Below are positions 21,283 through 43,209 of a stretch of 64,000 nucleotides of DNA, one piece after another. Each line of letters starts with the position of its first letter. The first letter of the stretch is position 1. The notes below the pieces were generated by a model. The model did not search any database and was not told the origin of the DNA. It worked only from the letters and a program-made list of their open reading frames with translations. Position numbers and translations under genes: made by a program. This stretch comes from a bacterium (lineage in GTDB: Bacteria > Bdellovibrionota > Bacteriovoracia > Bacteriovoracales > Bacteriovoracaceae): contig JAUHVL010000010.1 in the NCBI GenBank assembly GCA_030425045.1, forward strand, positions 1 to 64,000. The letters run 5' to 3'.

Positions 21283-22356
21283 ATGAAGTTATTAAATTTT
21301 CTGGTGCATTTTGCACTATTTACCCTTCTTTTTAGCTGTGGTCAGCACAGAGAAAACGATCAAAAAATCGTTTCTTCTCACGCTTTTTTTGAAAACTCCA
21401 AGAGAGAGCTTTTTTATTCGAACCATATTGAGGCCAAAGGTTTAGCACGAGTTAATGGTTGTACTGGTTTTTTTATTCATAATGCTCAAAATAAAAATAT
21501 ACTTGTTTCTGCCAGACATTGTTTTGGTTTTCAGGCCACCAATTGGTGCTTAAATGGAGGCCTTGCGAAAGTTGAATATACGGGAGATATACTACAATGT
21601 CGTGAAGTCATAGCAGGTGATGCAAATCACGATATTGTCGTTTTACGTTTTGAGGATAATATTCGAGACCGTTCAAAAGATTTTATCTTAGGAACTTTTG
21701 ATCTTGAGAGTGATGATCGTCTCGCTATGTATGGTTTTCCTGCTGATCCGTTCAATGTCGGAAATCATCTCGCCCTAACAGAAAATTGCTGGGTAAAGAT
21801 GGCCTTTTCTTTTAATAGCTATCGTGAAGATGAAAACAATAAGGCCAATAAAACATTTACTCATAATTGTTCTACTTATGGGGGAAATAGTGGAGGTCCT
21901 ATGGTTTTAGAGGGCACACGTATTGTCGTTGGTCTACCTAATGCTTACTTCCCAAACCGATTTGAGAATAGACCTGAGACTCATTCTGTAGAAGGTATTT
22001 CCATGGCCAAATATATTAATGTATTTAAAAGTGATTTGGATCGTTTTCATATCTTTTATCAAGAATTTAAAATTACCAATGAAAAGAATTTTTTTACCTC
22101 AGGACTTTTTCAATCAATTCTCAATCCAGGATGTTTTCTTGAGATTAAAAAAGTTGCCTATAATACAAACGCGTTTCCTAGTTATTTAAGGCTGGAGTTT
22201 ACTAACCTAAGTTGTGGACAGGGAATGGATCTTGTATGTCATAATAATGGTCAATGTTTTTTTAATAATGAGTTGAAAGTGCAGCTTAATCATGAAAACA
22301 GCTTTCAATTGTTTGAAAACAATTCAATCTACAATTATATAAGAATTTCAAACTGA
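21283..22356 (+). CDS. trypsin-like serine protease, lipoprotein
   Basis: 357 residues. Lipoprotein signal with lipobox LFSC (Cys19). The S1-family (trypsin-like) catalytic triad is visible: SARHC (His79), NHDIVVLRF (Asp117) and YGGNSGGP (Ser203), each in the expected order and spacing. Cysteines 60/80 and 196 would form the usual disulphides. A C-terminal extension of about 110 residues (250-357) with further cysteines has no recognised domain. It is likely a surface or periplasmic protease. It is preceded by an AT-rich gap and followed by structured repeat copy A. Confidence 0.85.
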   Translation: MKLLNFLVHFALFTLLFSCGQHRENDQKIVSSHAFFENSKRELFYSNHIEAKGLARVNGCTGFFIHNAQNKNILVSARHCFGFQATNWCLNGGLAKVEYTGDILQCREVIAGDANHDIVVLRFEDNIRDRSKDFILGTFDLESDDRLAMYGFPADPFNVGNHLALTENCWVKMAFSFNSYREDENNKANKTFTHNCSTYGGNSGGPMVLEGTRIVVGLPNAYFPNRFENRPETHSVEGISMAKYINVFKSDLDRFHIFYQEFKITNEKNFFTSGLFQSILNPGCFLEIKKVAYNTNAFPSYLRLEFTNLSCGQGMDLVCHNNGQCFFNNELKVQLNHENSFQLFENNSIYNYIRISN

Positions 22357-22381
22357 CCCATCTGATTGGAGATAAGTTTTC

Positions 22382-22615
22382 AACGTAAACTCGTATCATT
22401 GATAAAGCTCCAAATACTTACAGAAAGTAAATTAAAACTTCCATGTTTTACGATAACCAATATCGGGTCATCCATGCCCCGACCCTTCGGGCAAGTCTTG
22501 GTCATCTCCTATTTTAAAAAAAGGGATGTTTAAAACTTGCCCACGAAGTGGGTGCGACCACGACGGGAGCATTTTAAATGTCTAAAAACAGGGATGTTTT
22601 TTATAGGACTATCTA
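22382..22615 (+). repeat. structured repeat/ncRNA family, copy A
   Basis: Fills most of the 326-base gap between the protease and argS. It aligns with copies B and C at 42.2-42.6 kb, including a 60-base 5' part shared only with copy C. Nested pairings: outer CCATGTTTT/AAAACAGGG (one mismatch), ACCAATA (22456-22462)/TCTTGGT (22496-22502), TTTAAAA/TTTTAAA, hairpins CCCAC-GAA-GTGGG and TGCGACC-ACGAC-GGGAGCA. It ends in a T-run at 22596-22602. Same + orientation as the other copies. Confidence 0.75.
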
Positions 22616-22682
22616 AAACAGTTTTAATTTAAAAAATGAAACATATCCAATTAATAAGTAAATCAGTTTATAAGAATTTAAA

Positions 22683-24461
22683 TTACATTTTTGAAGGAAC
22701 TTTAATTCCTAAAATATTTAAGCCTTGTTCCATGACGCTTCCAACAGCATGAGATAAGGCCATTCTTGCATGTTTTCTTTTTTCATTCTCATCATTTTTA
22801 ATAGGGCAGGCGGCATAGAAGCTGTTATAGAGCTTTCCAAGCTCATAGAGATAGGAGCATAGGTGAAGTGTTTGCAGCTTATTGACTGAAGAGAGTACGA
22901 CATCATTAAAAGACGTTAGTTTCACCATTAAAGCGAGTTCTTGCTCCATTTGTAATTCGTCCCAATAAACGTCTTTCGTTTTATCAAAATTTAATTTCTC
23001 ACAAAGTGATCGGCAGCGTGCACATACATACTGGAGGTAAGGACCCGTTTCCCCGTCGAGTTTCAAGGCCTCTTCCATATCAAACATGATTTTCCGATTA
23101 TTATCGACTCTTACCATGCCATATTTGATAGCCGCGTTGGCGATTAAACTGGCATTGGTATTTACTTCTTTTTGAGTCCAGCCCGAGTCTTTATCTTCAA
23201 GGTGTTTGTTTAAATAATCAGATTTAATTTTATCTTCCATCGAAGAGATCAATGACTCTAATGTAATAATATTTCCCGTTCGTGAGGACATTCCACCGCC
23301 GGGTAATTCAACCATGGCATAGGGGAGGTGAAAGCATTTTTTTGCTTGTTCAAATCCGAGTTTTTCGAGCACTTTAAAAACTTGTTTAAAATGATGGCTT
23401 TGGCGATCGTCTACAATATAAATAGAATGATCGATACCAAATTCTTCAAACTTTAAACGGGCGAGTTCAACATCTTTAGTGGCATAGAGCCCAGTCCCAT
23501 CAGATTTTACGAGTAAACAAAAGCCAAGTTTTTCATCTTCAAGATTTAATCCAATGGCCCCATCATCTTTAACAAGCTTTCCTTGTTCAAAAAGTTTATT
23601 GATATAGGAAATGGAAGGGGCATCAACTTCAGATTCATAGAACCAGCGATCAAACTCTACATCGGCCCACTGATAAACATCATTCATCATCTCCAATGAC
23701 CAATCTCTTGTTTCGCGCCAAATATCGTAAAATTCACCTTCACCAGCGTGAAGCTGCTGTAAAATTGTCGTGAGTTCACTGCGGTTTTGCTCTTCCTTTT
23801 CAGTACCTTTTTCTTCTTCGAGTAGGGTATTACTTTTGACATAAAGTTCGCCTAACCATTCACCCTTATTCTCTGAAGGCCAAGGTTTTTCTACGTGTTT
23901 GTTTAGATACCAAAGACATTTTGCCACGTGAGTTCCAACATCACCTGGGTAGGTAGCTGCCAAAATATCTAGACCGCTATAACGACACATTCTTATCAGT
24001 GCATTACCTAAACAAAGGTTTCTCATATGTCCCACGTGAAGAACCTTATGCGTATTAGGCTGACAATATTCGATCATCCATTTTTCATCAGATGAGATTA
24101 GACGTTGGTTGAAGTAAAGGCCTTTATTAATAGCGTTTAAAACTTCTCCTAGAAAGTCGGGCTTAAAAAAGAAGTTAAGGTAGGGACCTTCGGCATTCAA
24201 AGAAGCGAGAAAATTCGAAGAGTTTTTTTCAACAATTTCAGCTAATGCTTGAGCAATTTGAACGGGTGACTTCTTACAGGTTTTTGCTAGAGGGAAACAG
24301 GGGTAAGCAAGATGTCCCTTTTTGAATTCAGGTGCAGGGGCAAAGCTTTTTAAAATACTTTCCGTTGTTTGCCCATGATCAGGTGAGATATCGACAAGTG
24401 ATGTTAAAATGGTTTGGGCAAGTTTAGTGGTAATATTATTTTGGTAGAGTTCACTCATCAT
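22683..24461 (-). CDS. argS: arginyl-tRNA synthetase
   Basis: 592 residues, class I synthetase that charges tRNA-Arg. N-terminal Add1-like region (1-110), HIGH signature as HVGH (142-145, in THKVLHVGHMRN), catalytic domain with DRQSHHFKQVF, a degenerate KMSKS (GGGMSSRTG), and a helical anticodon-binding DALR domain (MVRVDNNRKIMFDMEEALKL, ETGPYLQYVCARC). The standard ArgS layout of AT-rich bacteria. A second ATG directly follows the first; either could be used. It lies alone, on the opposite strand to the protease, with repeat copy A beyond its 3' end. Confidence 0.97.
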   Translation of the reverse strand: MMSELYQNNITTKLAQTILTSLVDISPDHGQTTESILKSFAPAPEFKKGHLAYPCFPLAKTCKKSPVQIAQALAEIVEKNSSNFLASLNAEGPYLNFFFKPDFLGEVLNAINKGLYFNQRLISSDEKWMIEYCQPNTHKVLHVGHMRNLCLGNALIRMCRYSGLDILAATYPGDVGTHVAKCLWYLNKHVEKPWPSENKGEWLGELYVKSNTLLEEEKGTEKEEQNRSELTTILQQLHAGEGEFYDIWRETRDWSLEMMNDVYQWADVEFDRWFYESEVDAPSISYINKLFEQGKLVKDDGAIGLNLEDEKLGFCLLVKSDGTGLYATKDVELARLKFEEFGIDHSIYIVDDRQSHHFKQVFKVLEKLGFEQAKKCFHLPYAMVELPGGGMSSRTGNIITLESLISSMEDKIKSDYLNKHLEDKDSGWTQKEVNTNASLIANAAIKYGMVRVDNNRKIMFDMEEALKLDGETGPYLQYVCARCRSLCEKLNFDKTKDVYWDELQMEQELALMVKLTSFNDVVLSSVNKLQTLHLCSYLYELGKLYNSFYAACPIKNDENEKRKHARMALSHAVGSVMEQGLNILGIKVPSKM

Positions 24462-37215: not shown

Positions 37216-38691
37216 ATGACTAGGATGGTTGTAGCACTTTTATTACTCACTCTTATTTCGTGTTCGACAAACGATAGTGAAAGAGGCCCTGCTTCTACAG
37301 ATCGTCCTCCTCAATACGTTTTATTATCTTTTGATGGTTCTAAAAGTTTAAGAATGTGGAATGAAATTTTAAACTTTGCAGATCAATTAGAAGATGAAGG
37401 AAGACCTGTTAAGTATTCCTTTTTTGTTTCAGGTGTTTACTTTGTTACGAGTAAAGATAAAAACCTTTATACTCCTCAAGGATTAAATGGCAGTCGTTAT
37501 CTAAGCCAAGGTCAGTCGGCTATTGGATGGGCCGATAGTAAAGAAGGAATCCAAAAAAGAATTGAGTTTATGAACCGGGCGGTAAGAAGTGGTCATGAAA
37601 TTGGCTCCCATGCTGTTGGACATTTTAGTGGTCATAAATGGACACATTCAGAATGGATGAATGAGTTTTCAGAATTTAACGATCTAGTTTTTAATTGGAA
37701 AAGAAACAATAGAATAGGTGGTGATAACCTCATTATTTCTCAAGATGATATTAAAGGTTTTCGAGCGCCACAACTTGGTGTATCGGGAGGTCTTTGGACG
37801 ACACTGAGAGATTTTAATTATTCTTATGATACCAGTGAGTCAAAAGATTATACACTTTGGCCTGTGCTTGGGTCGACTAGTGGAGCATGGAATATTCGGC
37901 TTGGGTTTATGCCTATTGTAAATACTTCAAGTAGGACCATTGCTATGGATTATAATTTTTATTTCAGACATAAAAAACAAACAAACCCCTCTACTTTAAA
38001 GTTTTATGAAGATCAAGTTTATGAAAGTTATATGAATTATTTTTATAAAAGTTATTATGGAAATAGAGCTCCTGTTGTCATCGGACATCACTTTTCACTA
38101 TGGAACCAAGGAATTTATTGGAATGCTTTCAAAAAATTTGCTCGCGCTGTTTGTGGACAAAGAGAAGTTGAATGTATAACTCATAAAGATTTTTCGGATA
38201 GAATGAGTAGCACTCCTAAAGCAACTTTTGCAAAGTATAGAAGGGGAGATTTTCCACGCTATACCAGAAGAAAGACATCTGACCCAGAATATTTAAAGAT
38301 TAAAGCGAGAAAGATCTATGATCTAAGAGCAAAGGTTAAACCTTATGAAGCTGGGGTAACATTTCAAGTAGAGGGTGAAGATAAAGACCTTCCTTACGAT
38401 TATCAGTTTAAATTTAATAACACTGCCATCTCTGGTAAAAAGTTATTAGAGCTCGCGGATCATATGAAGCAAAATAATGTTACGAGAGCACTATTAGAGT
38501 CTCAAGTATCTCATAATGACAATATTGTTTCTTCAGAAGTTCGAGCAGTGAAGTTAAACGACAAAGGGACAATTGATATTGCCCCGAAAAGTTTTGTCGA
38601 ATACCACAGTAATGATCACCATCTTGCCCACGATCAGGAGCCTGATATCGACAAGATGATGGAACATTATCTCAATAATTCAATTGAATAA
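37216..38691 (+). CDS. polysaccharide deacetylase-like lipoprotein
   Basis: 491 residues; lipoprotein signal with lipobox LISC (Cys16). NodB-like signatures: YVLLSFDGS (motif 1, Asp40), GHEIGSHAVGHFSGH (motif 2; His132 and His136 as metal ligands), FRAPQLGVS (motif 3), and late VVIGHHFSLW (motif 5 His). Motif 1 normally reads TFDDG; here the second, metal-binding aspartate is replaced, so activity or metal use may differ. Family members remove acetyl groups from chitin, xylan or peptidoglycan. The last 150 residues are an additional unrecognised domain. The stop abuts the convergent gene. Confidence 0.75.
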   Translation: MTRMVVALLLLTLISCSTNDSERGPASTDRPPQYVLLSFDGSKSLRMWNEILNFADQLEDEGRPVKYSFFVSGVYFVTSKDKNLYTPQGLNGSRYLSQGQSAIGWADSKEGIQKRIEFMNRAVRSGHEIGSHAVGHFSGHKWTHSEWMNEFSEFNDLVFNWKRNNRIGGDNLIISQDDIKGFRAPQLGVSGGLWTTLRDFNYSYDTSESKDYTLWPVLGSTSGAWNIRLGFMPIVNTSSRTIAMDYNFYFRHKKQTNPSTLKFYEDQVYESYMNYFYKSYYGNRAPVVIGHHFSLWNQGIYWNAFKKFARAVCGQREVECITHKDFSDRMSSTPKATFAKYRRGDFPRYTRRKTSDPEYLKIKARKIYDLRAKVKPYEAGVTFQVEGEDKDLPYDYQFKFNNTAISGKKLLELADHMKQNNVTRALLESQVSHNDNIVSSEVRAVKLNDKGTIDIAPKSFVEYHSNDHHLAHDQEPDIDKMMEHYLNNSIE

Positions 38692-39408
38692 TTAGAAATG
38701 AATTAACTCATTAGTGCCAGTGAGGTGAAAGCTTTCAGCTGTCTCATGGGCACTGGTGATGGTGTGAACTTTATGTCTCACTTCTACTGTTGCACCGGCA
38801 ACAGGATCATCTTGAGTTCCTCTGTTGGTAATAGAGATGAGTCTTGCGGCAGCATCTAAATTAAATCCCCAACGGACATTAATATTTTTAGCGGTTACAG
38901 TTAGCCCTGCTACGTAACTTCCTTTTCCGTCATAAGATCCACCATGCTGGTAATGGACTTGGTAATCAAAACTTGCGACGACCATACCAAAACCATTTTT
39001 ATACTCCACTCTGTGTGTTGCCACAGTAGGTGCAGACCATCCATACATTGAGTAAAAAGTACTATCGGTTACAATCCCATTATCATCTGTAATTTTAGGA
39101 ATCACATTGATAGGGTTTTGGAGGGCCATATTATAAGTTGGTTTACCTTTTTCAATGATGCCCCAAACTTTTGTCCCCAAAGCGACAAGTTGATCAACCA
39201 TAGCAATAACTTCACCGATATTTCGATTACCTGTAGGCTCAGAATATTGATGTTCTAGGTTGAAAGGTTCCGCTTCAATTTTTGTGACGTTGACTTCTGA
39301 AATTTGAAAATAAGGATCAACTTCTTCTGTTTGATTTGCCAATGTTGAAGCACTAAAGACTAGTGATGTTACCAAAATCCATTTTTTGGCGAGAGTGTAA
39401 ACGACCAT
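38692..39408 (-). CDS. secreted protein of unknown function
   Basis: 238 residues, signal peptide at about 9-24 (WILVTSLVFSASTLA). The mature protein is beta-rich (VATHRVEYKNGFGMVVASFD, VQVHYQHGGSY-type strands), contains no cysteines and ends IHF. GEVIAMVDQLVALGTKVWGIIEKGKPTY forms the only clear helix. I do not recognise the family. It abuts the convergent deacetylase gene without a gap and is divergent from lexA. Confidence 0.6.
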   Translation of the reverse strand: MVVYTLAKKWILVTSLVFSASTLANQTEEVDPYFQISEVNVTKIEAEPFNLEHQYSEPTGNRNIGEVIAMVDQLVALGTKVWGIIEKGKPTYNMALQNPINVIPKITDDNGIVTDSTFYSMYGWSAPTVATHRVEYKNGFGMVVASFDYQVHYQHGGSYDGKGSYVAGLTVTAKNINVRWGFNLDAAARLISITNRGTQDDPVAGATVEVRHKVHTITSAHETAESFHLTGTNELIHF

Positions 39409-41465: not shown

Positions 41466-42163
41466 AAAAACTCTTTTTACATGGATTTATGGGAGCGGGA
41501 AGTGATTGGAATATTACTCAAGGTCTGACTCCGGATTTACCTTGTTTTGGAGATAATTCTGAGCAGTTCGAAAGCCGTGAAGAGCTTTTTGAAAAACTCT
41601 ATCAACATTTTGTAAATGATCTTAAGATAACAAAAGAAGATTGTATTATCGGCTATTCCCTAGGGGGAAGAGTCGTTATGGAGCTCGTTTATAAAATGAA
41701 GATGCCCGTTAATAGATGTTTTATCTTATGTGCGCATCCGGGACTTGCAAGCTTAGAGCAAAGAGAGCAAAGAAGTGTTCAAGAGAAAAAGTGGATTCAA
41801 GCATTAGCTGAAAAAAATAAGTTTTTAGAAAATTGGTATAAAAATGATCTCTTTAGTGAACTGGTTAAGTTAAATCATTTTAATGAACTTTATCAAAGAA
41901 GACTTGAAGATAAGGGGGAGTATTGGCGAAAGTCTTTTGACTATTATGCTCTTTCAAAACAGCCTGATCTCTCACCGTTGATTCAAAATTCGTCTATAAA
42001 AATGGATTATTTTTATGGAGAGTTTGATAAGAAGTTCAGAGCAATAGCAAAAAATCTTAATTTATTAGGCGATCATATTACTATTCATCAGGTCGAAGGT
42101 GCCGATCATGCACTTCCTTGGATGTGTGATATTGAGGGATTGATTGATCAAATTTTAGATTAA
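41462..42163 (+). CDS. menH: MenH-like alpha/beta hydrolase (SHCHC synthase)
   Basis: 233 residues. FLHGFMGAGSDWNI (oxyanion hole HGFxGxxxDW), IIGYSLGGRVVMEL (nucleophile elbow with Ser) and VEGADHALPWM (catalytic His) are the MenH blocks; the Asp lies in MDYFYGEFDKK. It eliminates pyruvate to form 2-succinyl-6-hydroxy-2,4-cyclohexadiene-1-carboxylate. Its ATG overlaps the menE stop (ATGA). Downstream are repeat copies B and C. Confidence 0.8.
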   Translation: MKKLFLHGFMGAGSDWNITQGLTPDLPCFGDNSEQFESREELFEKLYQHFVNDLKITKEDCIIGYSLGGRVVMELVYKMKMPVNRCFILCAHPGLASLEQREQRSVQEKKWIQALAEKNKFLENWYKNDLFSELVKLNHFNELYQRRLEDKGEYWRKSFDYYALSKQPDLSPLIQNSSIKMDYFYGEFDKKFRAIAKNLNLLGDHITIHQVEGADHALPWMCDIEGLIDQILD

Positions 42164-42184
42164 GGATATTTACTTTAGCCAAAA

Positions 42185-42375
42185 AACTTCCTGTTTTTCG
42201 ATAGCCAATATTCAGCCATCCATGGCCTCACCCTAACGGGCAAGTATTGGCCATCTTTACGATTAGAGTGAAACGATATTTAAAACTGGCCCACGAAGTG
42301 GGTGCGACCACGACGGGAGCATTTTAAATGTCAAAAAACATGGATGTTTTTTTTTAGATAGACTTAAACTTCATA
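42185..42375 (+). repeat. structured repeat/ncRNA family, copy B
   Basis: Core aligned to copies A and C, without the 60-base 5' extension. Pairings: CCTGTTTTT/AAAAACATGG with one bulged T, GCCAATA (42204-42210)/TATTGGC (42245-42251), GCCAT-CC-ATGGC and CCC-TAAC-GGG hairpins, ATTTAAAA/TTTTAAAT, CCCAC-GAA-GTGGG, TGCGACC-ACGAC-GGGAGCA. Ends in nine Ts at 42347-42355 and the tail AGATAGACTTAAACTTCAT shared with C. Confidence 0.78.
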
Positions 42376-42406
42376 AACTGATCCCTTTTATTAGAGTCAA
42401 GTTATG

Positions 42407-42647
42407 AACGTAAACTCGTATCATTTACAAAGTTCCAAATACTTACAAAAAATAAATTAAAACTTCCATGTTTTGCGATAACCAATATCGGGTCATCCAT
42501 GCCCCGACCCTTCGGGCAAGTATTGGTCATCTCCTATTTTAAAAAAAGGGATGTTTAAAACTGGCCCACGAAGTGGGTGCGACCATGACGGGAGCATTTT
42601 AAATATCAAAAAACATGGATGTTTTTTTTTAGATAGACTTAAACTTC
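42407..42647 (+). repeat. structured repeat/ncRNA family, copy C
   Basis: Longest copy: 60-base 5' part shared with A, the structured core, and the T-run plus tail shared with B. Pairings: CCATGTTTT (42466-42474)/AAAACATGG (42610-42618), a perfect 9-base-pair closing stem; ACCAATA (42481-42487)/TATTGGT (42521-42527); CCC-TTC-GGG; TTTAAAA (42554-42560)/TTTTAAA (42597-42603); CCCAC-GAA-GTGGG (42565-42577); TGCGACC-ATGAC-GGGAGCA (42578-42596). Nine Ts at 42622-42630 make a terminator-like end. It lies in tandem with copy B in a convergent gap. Confidence 0.78.
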
Positions 42648-42651
42648 ATTT

Positions 42652-43209
42652 TTAATAAACCGGATTAGCACTCATCCCACGATTAGGCTTATTGCCGAAT
42701 TCTTCGTGAATTGTACGATTCCAGGTATTGAGAACCTTGCCTGTTTCTGAGTCGGCAAGGGCATTAAAACTATATTGTTTGCCTTCGGCCGTGATGGTGG
42801 TCACGATGACTTTTTCAACGTAACGACCTTTTCCATTTTCTACTTTGATATTTCCACTAACTTCTTTGATAAAGACCTTCGTTCCCGGAAGGCGGTGATC
42901 AAGTAAGTTATGACCTAACTTTTCTTTCCAGTCACTTGCTGGTTGGTTGATAAATTCGTTAATCTGTTTTTTATTTTTACCTAAAAAGACTCTTTCTCGT
43001 TTAATATTGGCCGGCACTCTTTTTGTTTCTTTTTTTGCATTAATTTTTTTTAATTCAGCACTGGTAGATTTATGATGCTTTACTTTATCTTTTTGAGTTT
43101 TTTCAAATGTCTCCCAGCTAGCGATATGTTGATCTTTATGAGAGATATAATAGATGAGAGCTCCAATCACTCCAATAAGGGCAAAAATGGCAAGGTATTT
43201 TAATTTCAT
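42652..43209 (-). CDS. membrane-anchored exported protein, possibly PepSY-like
   Basis: 185 residues: an N-terminal membrane helix (LKYLAIFALIGVIGALIYYI), a basic linker (30-80), and a C-terminal domain of about 100 residues (GTKVFIKEVSGNIKVENGKG, KVIVTTITAEGKQYSFNALA, then DSETGKVLNTWNRTIH). The order of strands resembles a PepSY domain, which often inhibits the propeptide-bearing metallopeptidase encoded nearby; here the gene before it encodes a metallopeptidase-like protein, so this pairing is suggestive. It starts at the stop of the upstream gene (shared base). Confidence 0.6.
   Translation of the reverse strand: MKLKYLAIFALIGVIGALIYYISHKDQHIASWETFEKTQKDKVKHHKSTSAELKKINAKKETKRVPANIKRERVFLGKNKKQINEFINQPASDWKEKLGHNLLDHRLPGTKVFIKEVSGNIKVENGKGRYVEKVIVTTITAEGKQYSFNALADSETGKVLNTWNRTIHEEFGNKPNRGMSANPVY

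Follow-up and report, generated by a model that had tools for sequence, protein, structure and literature searches.

Structured MITEs are already known from bacteria. In the Bacillus cereus group, the repeats bcr1-bcr3 are MITE-like, non-coding and 100-400 bp in length, and are often located in UTRs; bcr1, with on average 39 copies per strain, folds, as do its relatives, and transcripts arise from about half of all bcr copies (PMC3446304, PMC6542083). The NEMIS/Correia, ERIC, RUP and YPAL elements are small non-coding units with inverted ends and, for the most part, target duplications, whose base-paired transcripts can affect neighbouring mRNA (PMC2229807). REPINs, which are mobilised by RAYT, are dispersed hairpin repeats that exhibit compensatory changes within a single genome (PMC3116915), and Efa-1 of Enterococcus faecalis is an intergenic repeat of ~163 bp in which two adjacent stem-loops make up a complex fold (PMC2267715). 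The family described here was recognised in a stretch of 64,000 nucleotides from a member of the Bacteriovoracaceae, hereafter the window, which harbours three of its copies (A, B and C).

A preliminary description had placed copies B and C at 42185-42647 as a tandem pair on the + strand, with a closing stem followed by nine Ts. Both copies are present, and each has such a T tract after P1 (Table 1), but the unit is larger than that extent and element C already starts at ~42374. The gene to the left of copy A, on the + strand, has its end at 22356, and the one to the right, on the - strand, at 22683. Copy B (42183-42355) is old and diverged; its arms are eroded and it possesses B-type features (see below for the subfamilies). 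In copy C, the 5' arm and the 5' part of the core are C-type, whilst from within P4 to 42649 the sequence is ~98% identical to copy B, including the flank of B. On this comparison copy C is a chimaera carrying the 3' half of B, which probably arose by gene conversion or template switch. Its 3' half is thus not independent evidence, and of the tandem only about one and a half copies count as independent.

Table 1. Coordinates of copies A, B and C of the element within the 64-kb window.
Feature	Position	Strand	Basis or remark
Copy A element	22349-22670	+	Complete C-type, both inverted ends; ends and target duplication from alignment to arm consensus
Target duplication TAAGAATTT, left of copy A	22340-22348		9/9 identical to 22671-22679
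Target duplication TAAGAATTT, right of copy A	22671-22679		Identical to 22340-22348
Copy A structured core	22434-22602	+	Covariance model, 207 bits
Copy B structured core, diverged, arms eroded	42183-42352	+	Covariance model, 175 bits; fold z -4.47
T9 tract 3' of copy B P1	42347-42355	+	Sequence
Copy C element 5' arm, first bases are inverted end TAAACTGAT	42374-42458	+	91% identity to arm consensus
Copy C structured core	42459-42626	+	Covariance model, 206 bits; pair counts; coordinates from sequence
Copy C P1	42459-42474 with 42610-42625	+	
Copy C P2	42482-42487 with 42521-42526	+	
Copy C P2a; P2b	42489-42506; 42508-42516	+	
Copy C P4; apical hairpin	42550-42560 with 42597-42607; 42565-42577	+	
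T9 tract 3' of copy C P1	42622-42630	+	Sequence
B-derived stretch of copy C (approximate)	42550-42649	+	~98% identity to B, 19 bases of B flank included

Alignment of the flanks places the core within a unit of ~317 bp, whose 5' end, TAAACTGATCCCTTTAATTGG, is answered at the 3' end by a near-inverse, CCATTTAAGTACATCAGTTTA. These terminal inverted repeats are imperfect (TAAACTGAT...ATCAGTTTA), with ~16/21 positions matching in the longer ends, and the unit is flanked by 9-bp direct repeats whose sequence varies by copy. The target duplication is identical at 9/9 positions in 11 of the 28 scorable copies, in each case with the ends left unshifted, and at 8/9 in 6 more. No open frames of note are found in or across the unit. 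Inverted ends together with 9-bp duplications indicate insertion by a DNA transposase and, as there is no coding region, the unit is a MITE, a non-autonomous DNA transposon. The mobile unit, the sRNA with its own terminator and the attenuator suggested earlier do not exclude one another: this MITE-type unit carries an RNA-like domain whose end resembles a terminator. The Y1 gene of this genome is not flanked by the repeat, as would be expected of a REPIN/RAYT system. That gene, the only RAYT-like Y1 transposase gene present, is a 207-aa frame at G000:C65:17527-17784 (L102); core or P1-like sequence does not occur around it beyond chance. An autonomous element with matching ends was found neither by end pattern in the genome nor around two DDE_Tnp_1 loci, one Transposase_mut locus and one Y1 locus (three families searched). 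Such a partner is not required of old MITEs, and the mobiliser of the unit may be gone. The Transposase_mut (IS256-type) gene is single-copy, a 420-aa frame at G000:C8:121633-122757 (L103) around which no matching inverted ends were found. As the IS256-type family often gives duplications of 8-9 bp, a lost relative of this gene could have been the mobiliser.

The preliminary description had proposed a covariance-model search of the genome, and this search, with a model built from 41 copies and combined with BLAST, identified ~60 copies, many of them at intergenic sites, in the 3.97-Mb draft (91 contigs). These comprise 51 near-complete cores together with partial ones that are truncated at contig ends or have internal deletions. 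Three subfamilies can be distinguished, the C-type (~168 nt), to which window copies A and C belong, the B-type (~170 nt) and the D-type (~181 nt), the last detected by the covariance model only. Contigs that end in or next to an element include C34, C38, C52, C55, C64, C65, C70, C71, C73, C76, C86 and C89; with so many contig ends at the element, the true copy number is perhaps slightly miscounted. One further copy, L036:2001-2172 (G000:C36:34328-34499), has a B-type core very near that of L038, with ~27 nt of 5' arm and no 3' arm, and is either a core-only copy or an old copy that was recently converted.

Beyond this genome, the only one representing its genus, the family has not been encountered. 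A covariance search of 129 family genomes (own included) under strict filters matched the own genome only, and one of 37 relatives under laxer filters gave no match outside it; for the 128 other family genomes covered, the filters of these searches may miss distant relatives. A DNA search with the whole element across 124 family genomes returned one 40-bp match (in G073), which is AT-rich, has no core nearby and was taken as chance. The most conserved motif is absent in exact form from 84,980 genome records, a search that misses diverged relatives and a collection from which records near the own genome are maybe excluded, and from viral contigs. Rfam contains no family that matches at the gathering score, in agreement with the earlier statement that no named family was recognised. 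The literature on MITEs at convergent genes and on repeats in Bacteriovorax yielded nothing of use.

The 168-nt core folds into a closing stem, P1, of 16 positions (two of them often mismatched), a branched P2 that bears the hairpins P2a and P2b, and a P4 of 11 pairs with an apical hairpin. That the repeat is dispersed and covarying had been proposed from the window copies and is upheld in an alignment of 50 copies made by sequence only, structure not being used. In this alignment, 93.7% of cells pair and 11 pairs are altered on both sides, compared with 37-51% of cells and 1-4 double-changed pairs after sliding of the partner over 1-3 columns. As the structure was partly derived from the same sequences, it has an advantage over the slid versions in the share of cells paired and less of one in the double changes. 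The slid control was relied upon because a shuffle control does not keep the relatedness of the copies. The strong pairs are in P4, which has the TTTAAAA/TTTTAAA stem previously noted, and in P2a: in P4, TTTAAAA/TTTTAAA is replaced by CTTAGAA/TTCTAAG or CTCAGAA/TTCTGAG and, in L097, by CTCATAA/TTATGAG, and P2a occurs as GGGTCAT/ATGACCC, GGTCCAT/ATGGACC, GGCCAT/ATGGCC and GGGACAT/TTGTCCC. The pair 42481/42527, also cited, is indeed A-T in copy C and G-C in copy B, but it is a poor example, being A-T in 28 members of the family, G-C in 2 and unpaired (A.C) in 19. The folding energies of copies B and C lie well below those of dinucleotide shuffles (z -4.47 and -4.62, respectively). At the apex of P4, rival hairpins can be drawn, CCCAC/GTGGG, or GTGG/CCAC inside GCCC/GGGAGC; these columns hardly vary, so the two are indistinguishable. 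Two partial copies have lost parts of the fold, L044:2090-2198 most of P3 and P4, and L047:2122-2271 exactly the 17 nt of the P4 apical hairpin. Several resemblances to known signals were considered and set aside. The P2b loop may be an RNA tetraloop (UUCG, UCCG or UACG; UAAC in the B-type), but UCUG, UGAG and others also occur there, and it was not used as evidence. The GGA of the P1 3' strand, a candidate CsrA site, is accounted for by its pairing with an invariant TCC, and integron attC was dismissed by inspection, there being no arrays and no R-box consensus.

The + strand is favoured for the fold, although it is not proven. Two adjacent P4 pairs are G-U wobbles in 57/98 cells and, with a single exception, standard on the + strand; the minus strand would have A.C in place of these wobbles, so that they pair on the + strand only. 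Furthermore, 49/50 copies have a T-run of 5 or more after P1, and in 45/50 the A-run with which it pairs is exactly 4, so the extra Ts do not serve for pairing. Other observations do not separate the strands or point the other way. The minus strand of copy C folds almost as well (z -4.28), such that energy alone does not give the strand; amongst rare changes, A.C is about as frequent as G.U; and the A.C state of the P2 pair 42481/42527 in 19/49 copies counts against a + strand fold. The reverse complement of most cores scores ~50-80 bits with the covariance model, e.g. G000:C35:42458-42625 (-), and the fold is thus roughly symmetrical between strands. A simple terminator scan of 42100-42720 found none with its loop limit of 8, to which P1 is invisible. 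Where an intrinsic terminator has a G+C-rich hairpin with a short loop followed by a T-run, the element has the T-run, but the stem before it closes a loop of ~135 nt.

The structured and unstructured parts of the unit have diverged to very different degrees. Across 20 C-type copies of full length, the private substitutions per site reach 0.68 in one arm and 0.77 in the other, counting the inverted ends, and 0.65 in the spacer of 17 nt that separates P2 from P4, against 0.26 in the P2 domain, 0.14 in apical P4, and 0.09 in both the P4 stem and P1. The arms have 108 such changes in 3000 cells, compared with 26 in 3000 for the core minus its spacer (Fisher p = 2.5e-13). The spacer itself is distinct from the core (p = 8e-4) and resembles the arms (p = 0.88). 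The Fisher test assumes independent cells, which related copies do not provide. The core is less diverged than the arms in 20/20 copies, with medians of 3.3% and 10.7%, and the inverted ends are as variable as the arms. Searches by either arm alone recover nearly the same copy set (40 best candidates scored), so ascertainment through the core is an unlikely cause; among these 40 best candidates, no copy has good arms and a core that has been point-mutated away. Judged from this pattern of substitution, it is likely that the fold is maintained in resident copies whilst the transposition ends decay. Conservation of the structured parts alongside decaying arms and inverted ends, within the resident copies of one genome, is what is new here.

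The copies also occupy particular positions. Among the 47 for which both neighbours were called, 27 have convergent neighbours, 4 have divergent ones, and 7 (++) and 9 (--) have co-directional ones, the gene calls being rough and ORF-based. In the window, 11/55 neighbouring gene pairs are convergent, and the 27/47 of the copies exceeds this background with a binomial p = 2e-8. Most insertions lie within ~15 bp of a stop codon, and the stop is often within the target duplication. The attenuator that had been offered as one option finds no support, as the copies are situated at gene 3' ends and not in leaders. Seven of the 11 convergent window pairs abut or overlap at their stops (gaps 0, -4, -7, -32), e.g. 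37216-38691 (+) and 38692-39408 (-), which leaves no room for a usual terminator. Element-free convergent gaps in the window are mostly 0 bp or overlapping, and the positions of the elements may therefore simply be tolerated ones.

The best, but unproven, reading of these data is an RNA domain that was dispersed by a MITE, has a terminator-like 3' end and is retained where genes end. The unit spread by transposon-type insertion, probably in successive waves; its fold is conserved with compensatory changes, and resident copies likely keep it. The + strand RNA would come from read-through of a neighbouring gene or from some other promoter, and the domain closed by P1, with its U-tract, would end transcription or protect the 3' end in cis. 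The inferred role would be that of a transcription boundary between converging genes, retained by the host whilst the transposition ends decay. That the 168-nt domain acts in this way, as a structured RNA when the + strand is transcribed and as a boundary kept by the host, we regard as a real possibility that falls somewhat short of an even chance. The fuller proposal, a new class of structured RNA scattered by a transposon to ~60 gene ends and maintained copy by copy by the host as a transcription boundary, is held tentatively and is slightly more doubtful. The main difficulties lie in the last step: the absence of orientation bias (7 ++ versus 9 --) argues against a + strand terminator, which should prefer ++, and cores lacking an upstream + gene are no worse than others (by inspection, without a formal test).

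Alternatively, the folded core could be a selfish signal for mobility, recognised as RNA or ssDNA by a trans-acting enzyme as in REPINs, in which case the lineages that retain the fold would be the ones that multiply, and the element, not the host, would account for the conservation. REPINs likewise show compensatory changes (PMC3116915), a Y1 (RAYT-like) transposase gene is present in the genome, the B-type core of L036 near that of L038 has almost no arms, and terminal branches may contain additional, unseen rounds of transposition. This is nevertheless rather unlikely, as the Y1 gene is without flanking core-like sequence, the inverted ends, which transposition should need, vary like the arms, and the target duplications lie outside the arms and do not adjoin the core. 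Were the product instead a free small RNA, made from the promoter of each copy, ending at the T-tract and acting in trans, then the complex fold with its U-tract end and the apparent independence of core conservation from an upstream + gene (by inspection) would be expected; we consider it improbable, given that the 5' arm, where the promoter would be, is unconstrained at 0.68 private changes per site, that a promoter scan found one weak site, fewer than in shuffles, and that selection on ~60 redundant copies is hard to explain for an RNA acting in trans.

Ectopic gene conversion among copies, in place of selection, could in principle produce the low variation of the core, and exchange between copies does occur, copy C being a chimaera and L036 looking converted. 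Conversion should homogenise the 17-nt spacer too, yet this segment inside the core is as variable as the arms, and the compensatory changes by which the subfamilies differ would not have been spared; this explanation is accordingly given little weight. Least probable is that the fold acts as DNA in the gaps between converging genes, where it would form a cruciform or bind a protein. Positive supercoils meet at convergent positions, where the copies are found, and both strands fold almost equally well; however, the tandem G-U pairs of P4 form on the + strand only and the one-sided extra Ts would be left unexplained. If the RNA boundary reading is instead true, purifying selection acts on the RNA domain of every resident copy even as the mobile unit decays; bacterial MITE copies are usually expected to decay neutrally once inserted. 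The system, in which an RNA-like fold with no match in Rfam is kept with compensation in dozens of parallel copies, lends itself to a direct test of whether selected RNA elements can be seeded by a transposon at the ends of genes.

In comparison with the systems outlined above, the family resembles the bcr repeats in being MITE-like, non-coding, folded and present in dozens of copies. The mobility of bcr repeats, however, is tied to a TTTAT motif, in contrast to the variable 9-bp duplications found here, and the present unit has less conserved arms on either side of its folded domain; the two are set apart here by description. With NEMIS/Correia, ERIC, RUP and YPAL it shares a small non-coding unit, inverted ends and target duplications. 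Those elements are below ~200 bp, mostly have TA ends and form a single long stem-loop with their own ends at its base, whereas the branched domain of the present unit is closed by a stem further inside, separate from the inverted ends. Like REPINs, it is a dispersed folding repeat with compensatory changes in a single genome, but it measures 317 bp, has inverted ends and 9-bp duplications, and does not lie beside the only Y1 gene of the genome. Efa-1 is likewise an intergenic repeat with a complex fold, a likeness drawn from its description. EFAR inserts at stem-loops, and here there is no sign of insertion into such structures. The unit thus differs from structured MITEs, bcr repeats and REPINs in its enclosed branched domain, its 9-bp duplications and the contrast between a conserved domain and its decaying arms.
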